From an archaeon (GTDB lineage Archaea > Hydrothermarchaeota > Hydrothermarchaeia > JALTZZ01 > JALUTC01): a DNA stretch of 6,664 nt. This document shows positions 414-6,113 of this stretch, in pieces. The notes below the pieces were generated by a model. The model ran no database searches and was not told the DNA's origin. It saw only the letters and a program-made list of their open reading frames with translations. The DNA lies in contig JALTZH010000019.1 of NCBI GenBank assembly GCA_027051265.1, positions 1 through 6,664 on the forward strand. The letters are read 5' to 3'. The first letter of the stretch is position 1, and every line of letters begins with the position of its first letter. The position numbers and the translations under genes are program-made.

Positions 414-1586
414 ATGAACATATATGAAAAAATAGATGAAATTAAGTATTATATAGATAAGATGGATAAAAATACTGTTACATGGATCTTCTGTAGAGAG
501 GATTTTGATTCAACGCTTGCAGCATTAATTATGTTTTTATTGTTAAAGCATTTAGGATTTAAAGTTCATATCAGATATGTTAAGAGTTTAGAGGATATAG
601 ATAATTCTATAGCTAAAAGAAACGTTATCCTAATAAACTTAGGGCAATTAGGAGGAGGAGAGATTTCGATATGTAGAATTAATGATTATTCTTCAACTTA
701 TATATCATATAATGTATTTAAAGAATATATTAAAGATGAGTTCTATGCGATATATCCTATAATCGTATCGTTGCTTGAGTTTCAAGATAACAAAGGAGAA
801 CTTCCAGAACATTGTAAAGAACTCGTAGAGGAATCAAATGTAAAAATAGAAAAAGATTTAAGGATTATAAGATGTGAAACCTTTACGTTAAGTGATTCCT
901 TAAAATTATTTTTTCCACCATTTTTAAAAGGTTTAAGTGGAAACGAATCCGGTACTAAAAAATTTCTTAAAGAAATAGGATTGGAAGATAAAAGAATCAT
1001 GGATTTAAGTAATAATGAGATGAATTATTTAAAACAACGTTTGTTAGATGAATATGGTGAATATTCCAGCATAGTTGGTGAAGTATATTATTATAAGGGA
1101 AAAGATTTAAAGATAATTGCACATAACATGTTTTCGATATATAAAGAAGATTTAAACAGTTTTTTAAAATCGTTTTTTCATAAATACTTAGATGTTAGGG
1201 AATGTTTTTCATATTATACTTCACTTTTATACCTTTGTTTGAATTGGGTTGATAAAAACATCAACAAAATGATTAGATCAGAAAAATTTTATTATATATA
1301 TACGATGGAAAAATTAAATAAAGATTTTATAGAAATGGTGCTAAAAATATTGAAGCGTGGAAAATTTATAAAGGATAAAAAACCCCTTGCATTATTTATT
1401 AGAGAAAATAACAGGATAAAAATACACATGATATTAACCAAACGTATAAATAAGGAGACTGTTGAAAAAAATTTTTCTGATATAATTTATGATATCGATT
1501 ATAATTATCCTTTTTTGCATATAGAATTAAGAGAAAGAGTTATGTTAACGTTTTTACAAAAGATGAATGCAATATTAAACAAATAA
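414..1586 (+). CDS. GAN/RecJ/Cdc45-like DHH-superfamily protein, probably catalytically inactive
   Basis: This 390-residue protein resembles the archaeal GINS-associated nuclease (GAN), the RecJ/Cdc45 relative that joins MCM and GINS in the replicative helicase complex. Visible matches: residues 25-50, where CREDFDST (27-34) stands where GAN has SHNDADG, followed by a hydrophobic helix and LGF; residues 71-83 (VILINLG-QLGGGE) for the strand ending in DLGSG; residues 115-130 ending in QDNKGEL, like the RQD..G.L segment; and residues 162-190 with PPFLKGLSGNE (168-178) then FLKEIGL, a very typical GAN segment. The catalytic signature is eroded: the motif-I His is Arg28, the motif-II Asp is Asn75, no DHH triplet exists in the shortened stretch 84-112, and the C-terminal GGGH of DHHA1 is absent. 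It is somewhat shorter than usual GAN proteins (about 450-470). A structural, Cdc45-like role is inferred. No GINS gene is adjacent. It is probably monocistronic. Confidence 0.7.
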   Translation: MNIYEKIDEIKYYIDKMDKNTVTWIFCREDFDSTLAALIMFLLLKHLGFKVHIRYVKSLEDIDNSIAKRNVILINLGQLGGGEISICRINDYSSTYISYNVFKEYIKDEFYAIYPIIVSLLEFQDNKGELPEHCKELVEESNVKIEKDLRIIRCETFTLSDSLKLFFPPFLKGLSGNESGTKKFLKEIGLEDKRIMDLSNNEMNYLKQRLLDEYGEYSSIVGEVYYYKGKDLKIIAHNMFSIYKEDLNSFLKSFFHKYLDVRECFSYYTSLLYLCLNWVDKNINKMIRSEKFYYIYTMEKLNKDFIEMVLKILKRGKFIKDKKPLALFIRENNRIKIHMILTKRINKETVEKNFSDIIYDIDYNYPFLHIELRERVMLTFLQKMNAILNK

Positions 1587-3312: not shown

Positions 3313-3386
3313 GGGCCCGTAGCTTAGTCTGGTAGAGCGTGGGACTCTTAATCCCAAGGTCGGGGGTTCAAATCCCCCCGGGCCCG
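3313..3386 (+). tRNA. tRNA-Lys (anticodon CUU)
   Basis: A complete 74-nt cloverleaf. The acceptor stem GGGCCCG (3313-3319) pairs perfectly with CGGGCCC (3379-3385), with discriminator G at 3386. The D arm contains AGCTTAGTCTGGTAGAGC. The anticodon stem TGGGA/TCCCA (3340-3344, 3352-3356) closes the loop CTCTTAA, placing the anticodon CTT at 3347-3349, which reads AAG. The T arm is GGGGG-TTCAAAT-CCCCC (3362-3378). There is no intron and no encoded CCA. It lies 5 nt before the next tRNA, so the two are almost certainly one transcript. Confidence 0.97.
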
Positions 3387-3391
3387 TTTAT

Positions 3392-3464
3392 GCCCCGGTA
3401 GCTCAGCTGGTAGAGCGACGCTCTGGTAAAGCGTAGGTCCCGGGTTCAAATCCCGGCCGGGGCT
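3392..3464 (+). tRNA. tRNA-Thr (anticodon GGU)
   Basis: A complete 73-nt cloverleaf. The acceptor stem GCCCCGG (3392-3398) pairs with CCGGGGC (3457-3463), with discriminator T at 3464. The anticodon stem ACGCT/AGCGT (3418-3422, 3430-3434) closes the loop CTGGTAA, with anticodon GGT at 3425-3427, reading ACC and ACU. The T arm is CCGGG-TTCAAAT-CCCGG (3440-3456). CCA is not encoded and there is no intron. It is the second gene of the tRNA pair. Confidence 0.97.
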
Positions 3465-4590: not shown

Positions 4591-5715
4591 ATGCATTTAA
4601 AGGGTATTCATTTCATGCAGGGAAACGTTGCTTGTGCTGAAGGTGCAATAGCTGCAGGTTGTAGATTTTTTGCTGGATATCCAATAACACCAAGTACAGA
4701 AATAGCAGAATGGTTAGCAAGAAGGTTACCAAAAATTGGAGGCATCTATATCCAAATGGAAGATGAGATAGGTAGTATTGCAGCAATAATAGGTGCGAGA
4801 TGGGCTGGGGTAAAATCAATGACCGCAACATCCGGACCAGGATTTAGCTTAATGCAAGAAAACATCGGTTATGCTGCGATGACAGAGACACCTATTGTTG
4901 TTGTTAATGTTCAAAGAGGAGGACCAAGTACGGGACAACCAACATTGCCAAGTCAACAAGATGTATTACAATCGATGCATGGATCTCATGGAGATTATGA
5001 AGTTATTGTTCTATCACCAAATTCTCCACAAGAAATGTTTGATTTAACGGTTTTAGCTTTTAATTATTCCGAAATGTACAGAGTACCAGTAATTTTGTTA
5101 TCGGATGAAATAGTTGGTCATATGAGAGAAAAGGTAATTATACCAGAACATGTTGAAACGTATACCGCACCTTTACCAGAAAAAAACAGTTTACCATTTG
5201 AAGCAGATCCAGATACTCTAGTACCTAAGATGCCAATTTTTGGTAAAGGTTATAAAGTACATGTCACAGGATTAACACATGATGAGAGAGGATATCCCAG
5301 AACATATGAGCCGGAGATTCATTTTAAACTTGTTAAAAGATTATGTGATAAGATAAGAAAAAATGCGGATAAGATTGTAAAATACGAAACAAAGTTTATA
5401 GAGGATGCTGACTTGATAATAATTTCGTATGGTGCAACTTCGAGAAGTGTTACTCAAACAGTATTAGAAATGAGAGAAAAAGGATATAAGGTTGGTATGA
5501 TACGACCTATAACGTTGAATCCATTACCTGAAAGATTCATACGAGAAATCTGTGAGGATAAAAAAATATTGGTTTGTGAGATGAATCTTGGACAATTAGT
5601 GAAAGAAATAGAGCGAATCGTAAGAAAAGATGTTCACTTTTTACCTAAAATAGGAGGAGAAGTACATACACCTGAAGAAATATTTAACATTGCTAAAAAT
5701 TTAATTAGAATATGA
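4591..5715 (+). CDS. korA: 2-oxoacid:ferredoxin oxidoreductase, alpha subunit (KorA type)
   Basis: This is the alpha subunit of 2-oxoglutarate (or a related 2-oxoacid) ferredoxin oxidoreductase, which decarboxylates the 2-oxoacid to acyl-CoA, reducing ferredoxin. With the beta subunit it forms the cytoplasmic thiamine-diphosphate enzyme. The 374 residues match the family length. Visible motifs: MQGN.ACAEGAIAAGC (9-24), GYPITPSTEI (29-38), MEDEIGSIAAIIGARWAG (56-73), TATSGPGFSLMQEN (78-91), and a C-terminal domain with IIISYGATSRS, VGMIRPITLNP and CEMNLGQL. The first ATG fits a leaderless start, giving a short leader before the conserved MQGN. The beta subunit gene, usually next, is absent; a Toprim gene overlaps the stop instead. 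Substrate choice among 2-oxoacids cannot be proven from this subunit alone. Confidence 0.9.
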   Translation: MHLKGIHFMQGNVACAEGAIAAGCRFFAGYPITPSTEIAEWLARRLPKIGGIYIQMEDEIGSIAAIIGARWAGVKSMTATSGPGFSLMQENIGYAAMTETPIVVVNVQRGGPSTGQPTLPSQQDVLQSMHGSHGDYEVIVLSPNSPQEMFDLTVLAFNYSEMYRVPVILLSDEIVGHMREKVIIPEHVETYTAPLPEKNSLPFEADPDTLVPKMPIFGKGYKVHVTGLTHDERGYPRTYEPEIHFKLVKRLCDKIRKNADKIVKYETKFIEDADLIIISYGATSRSVTQTVLEMREKGYKVGMIRPITLNPLPERFIREICEDKKILVCEMNLGQLVKEIERIVRKDVHFLPKIGGEVHTPEEIFNIAKNLIRI

Positions 5716-6113
5716 ATCTCTTACCATTACTTGAAGAATTTTTAAGGATAATGAATAGGGATGAGAACATACCAATATTAGTTGAAGGATATCGTGACCT
5801 TTTGGCATTACGTTATATGGGTTTTAAATCCCAGATATATACCTTAAACAATAAACCGCTATTGGAAATTTGTTATGAAATATCCAGAAAACATAAAAAA
5901 GTATATATTCTTTTTGACTTTGATAAAAGAGGCAAATTTCTATATAGGAAGACGAAGAGATATCTATCAGAGCTTGGGGTAGTTGTAGACGATACGCTTA
6001 GAGATTTGTTTAAGAAATTTGGAATATCAAAAATCGAAGAAATAAGATATAGAATAAAAAATCTAGTTAAAAATGATAAATATTTTTATTTATACTTTGG
6101 TAATGAGTTTTAA
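5712..6113 (+). CDS. Small Toprim-domain protein (UPF0292 type)
   Basis: A 133-residue protein made almost entirely of a Toprim fold, the metal-binding core shared by DnaG primases, topoisomerases and RNase M5. The motifs are clear: ILVEGYRDLLALRYMGF (22-38) with catalytic-type Glu25, and VYILFDFDKRGKFL (64-77) with the DxD pair Asp69 and Asp71. The tail, with DDTLRDLF then an IEEIRYRIKNL helix, fits the archaeal UPF0292 family of small primase-like proteins, whose function is not established; RNA or DNA cleavage or processing is a guess from the fold. All the acidic metal-binding residues are kept. The start codon overlaps the korA stop (ATGA at 5712-5715), so translation is probably coupled to korA. 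T-runs follow it. The pairing with a metabolic gene may be only positional. Confidence 0.85.
   Translation: MNLLPLLEEFLRIMNRDENIPILVEGYRDLLALRYMGFKSQIYTLNNKPLLEICYEISRKHKKVYILFDFDKRGKFLYRKTKRYLSELGVVVDDTLRDLFKKFGISKIEEIRYRIKNLVKNDKYFYLYFGNEF

Follow-up and report, generated by a model that had tools for sequence, protein, structure and literature searches.

A diverged GAN/RecJ/Cdc45-like protein of Hydrothermarchaeota predicted to lack nuclease activity

The locus and its family assignment

The stretch of DNA analysed here (the window) is a whole contig of 6,664 bp (C19) of a 1.46 Mb MAG (G000; 95% complete, 1.1% contaminated) from a deep-branching archaeon. The aspartokinase encoded in the window is 83% identical to that of a genus-mate (G002) and the contig is therefore assigned to the genus. 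G002 harbors two aspartokinase copies (C130 and C143), both 83% identical to that of the window, which are either paralogues or the result of a strain mixture. The gene under study encodes a protein of 390 amino acids (Table 1). The remaining part of the window contains a minus-strand frame (positions 1–64) cut by the contig end, the product of which starts with MSLSDEIIYLIDLDGKFTYIN and is PAS-domain-like, and an ordinary tandem of tRNA-Lys(CTT) and tRNA-Thr(GGT) genes (3313–3464, plus strand). A 133-amino acid Toprim protein (5712–6113, plus strand), related to the PRK04017 family with scores below the cut-offs, is encoded directly 3' of a gene for an alpha-type subunit of a 2-oxoacid:ferredoxin oxidoreductase.

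Table 1. Features of the GAN/RecJ/Cdc45-like gene, in window coordinates
Feature	Position	Strand	Evidence
GAN/RecJ/Cdc45-like protein, 390 aa, predicted without nuclease activity	414..1586	+	ORF, RecJ_archaeal match, GAN profile, AlphaFold model and fold matches
Degenerate motif I, residues 28–33, R-E-D-F-D-S (for H-x-D-A-D-G)	495..512	+	Alignments
Degenerate motif II, residues 75–82, N-L-G-Q-L-G-G-G (for D-x-G-S-G)	636..659	+	Alignments; exact register uncertain
Deletion site removing motif III (DHH) and its strand, residues 84–90	663..683	+	Gap versus all relatives
Degenerate motif IV, residues 121–125, L-E-F-Q-D (for G-D-x-Q-D)	774..788	+	Alignments
CMG-interacting domain (CID) region, residues 143–221	840..1076	+	GAN profile segment, Pfam DHH_CID (sub-threshold), kept columns
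Stem helix and DHHA1 start, residues 270–352	1221..1469	+	GAN profile segment (24.3 bits), alignments

The frame is no chance event. No stop codon interrupts its 390 codons at a GC content of 25%, and approximately 4e-13 open frames of this kind are expected by chance at the composition of the window. The codon-position composition is coding-like and GC3 resembles that of the neighbouring genes. The protein matched the NCBIfam model RecJ_archaeal at 5.2e-16, albeit with a score (58.5 bits) far below the curated cut-off of 360, and the SSO0295 family (Sulfolobus RecJdbh) at 1.3e-6 (27.6 bits, below the cut-off of 350), while the HAN model, also among the curated family models, gave no match. 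In a single-sequence search, the RecJ-Cdc45 protein of Methanothermobacter (PDB 7bhi) was matched at an E-value of 0.0016. A GAN profile built from 15 intact GANs scored the protein with 76.8 bits in three collinear segments, compared to 3.9 bits for the best of 300 shuffled sequences. The segments PPFLKGLSGNE and QDNKGEL, from which a GAN scaffold had originally been predicted, align with conserved GAN segments, and together with the profile matches this confirms a real, highly diverged gene of the GAN/RecJ/Cdc45 type. Descent from the second RecJ paralogue of the phylum was rejected, since a profile of that paralogue did not match the protein. The amino acid sequence identity to active GANs is approximately 24%, whereas those of the phylum are about 50% identical to one another. 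In the tree, the branch of the protein is very long (5.07 versus a median of 0.33), for which reason its placement is not settled.

Catalytic motifs and predicted fold

The catalytic residues were checked on alignments to 15–21 active relatives. The motif set of intact GANs (H-x-DADG, motif II Asp, DHH, GD and GGGH) was not found in the protein. In motif I, the histidine is replaced by Arg28, as the original prediction had stated, and the glycine by Ser33, while Asp30 and Asp32 are kept. The predicted loss of the motif II aspartate was seen as well, but its proposed counterpart, Asn75, was obtained in one alignment only and is Gln78 in another. The DHH triplet, which had been reported missing, is indeed deleted together with a block of approximately 20 to 30 residues, the gap to all relatives lying at about residues 84 to 90. 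The aspartate of motif IV (GD of GAxGDxQD) is conservatively exchanged for Glu122, a substitution absent from the earlier account. The C-terminal GGGHD is deleted in the alignments, in accordance with the prediction, and the GGGH loop expected after the stem helix and the start of DHHA1 is missing. Because of the loss of these motifs, the protein is predicted to have lost nuclease activity. The nuclease residues had been described as lost; the loss is, however, incomplete, since Asp30, Asp32 and the conservative Glu122 remain.

An AlphaFold model of the protein (pLDDT 80.8, pTM 0.72) was confident over most of the length and dropped to pLDDT values below 50 at residues 79–84, near the DHH deletion. 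As this model was built on an alignment of active GANs, it is biased towards the GAN fold. The model superposed on the archaeal RecJ-Cdc45 7bih with a Z-score of 30.5 over 381 residues and on human Cdc45 (5dgo) with 21.3 over 377 residues. With this bias, the fold of the RecJ/Cdc45 superfamily (DHH-like domain, helical connector and DHHA1) extends over residues 1–390, except that the DHH domain lacks one strand, and a fold devoid of the DHH core was not seen. The parallel originally drawn to eukaryotic Cdc45, an inactivated RecJ relative, is supported.

In contrast to the active site, the CID appears to be the best-kept stretch of the protein. The strongest segment of the GAN profile match (residues 93–202, 34.9 bits) overlaps this domain, and near-invariant GAN positions are retained at 14 of 26 sites in the CID compared to 23 of 73 in the rest of the protein (one-sided p = 0.04); the Pfam model DHH_CID matched below threshold (0.069). 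The signal is modest, but of the kind expected for a retained docking function.

Search for another GAN in the genome and the phylum

The comparison set comprised 23 genomes, which served for both the class and the phylum (Hydrothermarchaeota). The RecJ_archaeal cut-off was passed in 16 of them and two more hold split copies. Apart from the protein described here, every GAN of the phylum with a motif in view is catalytically intact. In the loci inspected, the GAN gene follows that of S15, whereas the 390-amino acid protein is encoded outside the S15 neighbourhood. No other GAN and no fragment of an active one was detected in the 95%-complete G000 by family search at E-values up to 10, and G002 yielded no GAN either. 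The assumption that this is the only GAN-type gene of the genome therefore stands within the limits of a MAG of this completeness.

An orthologue of the protein was not identified in G002, neither at an E-value of 0.01 nor in 530 kb searched with higher sensitivity, and both aspartokinase copies of this genome lack a GAN-like gene upstream. Of the two genomes of the genus, the gene was found in G000 alone. Exact peptide patterns retrieved no close relatives from genome contigs and viral contigs. A second GAN assembled from fragments on C45 and C180 of G000 was considered and discarded, because they correspond to an intact 358-amino acid DHH/DHHA1 protein of G002 without a CID match; a single short, active DHH/DHHA1 gene, located near his genes, is likely split over the ends of the two contigs, whereas it is intact in G002 (C4). 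G000 also encodes a HAN-like protein in a separate ORF of 641 amino acids on C208 (scored by the HAN model with 549.5 bits at a cut-off of 840) and a 305-amino acid DHH/DHHA1 protein on C66.

The protein might be an additional, inactivated paralogue, with replication served by a normal active GAN encoded in a section of the genome absent from the assembly. The gene of S15, the usual neighbour of GAN, is itself missing from the G000 assembly, which is 95% complete, and a 93%-complete MAG (G011) shows no GAN even though its congeners have one, so that a GAN can be missed in a MAG; because of these two observations, the explanation retains some weight. The presence of two GANs in a further genome (G012) also counts in its favour. 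On the other side, the genus-mate G002 also lacks a GAN and carries genes for a DtxR-like regulator and a Sua5-like protein after S15 instead, and G000 did not yield even a fragment of an active GAN at E-values up to 10. Overall, a missed active GAN is considered unlikely. The two GANs of G012 (C62 and C6) are full-length and active and reflect either a duplication or a mixed MAG.

A putative Cdc45-like subunit of the replicative helicase

It is likely that the gene encodes a Cdc45-like subunit of the replicative helicase of this archaeon, derived from an active GAN by loss of the catalytic centre. One MCM (G000:C43) and one Fen1 were found in G000, and its GINS51 (C99) keeps the C-terminal domain (PF22090, 8e-13), which is the part binding GAN/Cdc45 (PMC5484177, PMC12035558). 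Known structures show MCM in contact with the CID and GINS with the DHH domain (PMC5484177). An active GAN nuclease would have become a non-nuclease subunit of the CMG complex, the DHH domain of which would bind the C-terminal domain of GINS51 while the CID would contact MCM. The protein may help to keep MCM in place and to activate it, leaving the DNA uncut, and the cutting might be covered by Fen1 and possibly by other DHH nucleases such as HAN. Against a Cdc45-like subunit stand the modest CID signal, the GAN-biased model, the place outside the S15 neighbourhood and the single known sequence; moreover, the very long branch would equally be expected of a gene that is under weak constraint or decaying.

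A functionless remnant on its way to a pseudogene would account for this branch, for the lost catalytic motifs and for the detection of the gene in G000 but not in its genus-mate. Such decay is nevertheless improbable in view of the 390 stop-free codons at 25% GC, the coding-like composition with a GC3 like that of the neighbours, the model confident over most of its length and the CID residues conserved among GANs. A rebuilt metal site with Asp30, Asp32 and Glu122 could provide a residual phosphodiesterase or nuclease activity, for which the two kept motif I aspartates and the conservative exchange in motif IV speak. This is very improbable, since nothing is left of the motif II aspartate, the DHH histidines or the GGGH loop, and the matching motif II aspartate is the one mutated in the D83A structure of P. 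furiosus RecJ (according to the entry title).

Compared to GAN and archaeal RecJ (Thermococcus GAN, Pyrococcus RecJ, Methanothermobacter RecJ-Cdc45), the putative Cdc45-like subunit shows whole-length homology, the same DHH-CID-DHHA1 order and fold Z-scores of 28 to 30, but differs in the low identity (approximately 24%), the lost catalytic motifs and the position away from S15. Eukaryotic Cdc45 shares the dead RecJ fold with a CID (Z 19 to 21); the identity in structural alignments, however, is only about 10–16%, and the 390-residue protein is devoid of the long acidic/helical insertion. Inactivated RecJ homologues of Crenarchaeota and Halobacteria were described by Makarova and colleagues, who proposed that inactivation had occurred independently at least twice and that these proteins are structural components of replication (PMC3307487). 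The crenarchaeal proteins (Sulfolobus RecJdbh/SSO0295 family, arCOG00432 of Desulfurococcales and arCOG05692 of Thermoproteales) have likewise lost the nuclease centre, and a role in CMG was predicted or shown for them (PMC3307487, PMC7776575); Sulfolobus RecJdbh, which is without nuclease activity, forms a CMG-like complex (PMC7776575). This is in contrast to the protein described here insofar as the latter matches SSO0295 more weakly (27.6 bits) than RecJ_archaeal (58.5 bits) and the other GANs of its phylum are active. The halobacterial RecJ (arCOG00428) was also inactivated within an otherwise active, euryarchaeal-type lineage (PMC3307487), but keeps the S15 neighbourhood, unlike the gene described here.

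Since RecJ_archaeal is the closer match of the protein and the Sulfolobus family the more distant one, a separate loss appears to be the simpler reading, although the tree gives no placement. Loss within the lineage is likewise simpler because the other GANs read in the phylum are catalytically intact, and an ancestral state is not supported; of the independent or ancestral parallel to the eukaryotic CMG complex proposed originally, the independent one is retained as plausible. On balance, it seems somewhat more likely than not that, in this lineage, the only GAN independently became a Cdc45-like helicase subunit without nuclease activity, with the DHH strand deleted and the gene moved away from S15, while the other GANs of the phylum stayed active. 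The case is probably one more, independent example of a type of loss already known, the occurrence in Hydrothermarchaeota being new; a literature search pairing the phylum with GINS, with most subscription journals outside its range, returned no earlier report for it. It would add an apparent case of Cdc45-like inactivation in this phylum. The importance of the nuclease of the ancestral CMG helicase for replication is an open question (PMC5484177, PMC3307487), for which a lineage without GAN nuclease beside relatives possessing it would offer a natural comparison, namely of which other nucleases change upon its loss and which GAN surfaces are retained.

A phosphoenolpyruvate-synthase-like protein with an apparent small in-frame intein is encoded on the minus strand of a G002 contig (C12). 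Upstream of the 390-codon frame, the segment CTTCCTCCTCACGCTGAAGGACGGG (138–165) resembles IS200/IS605 ends. It gave no stable fold and had no second copy in the fetched loci; possibly it is a vestige of the relocation of the gene.
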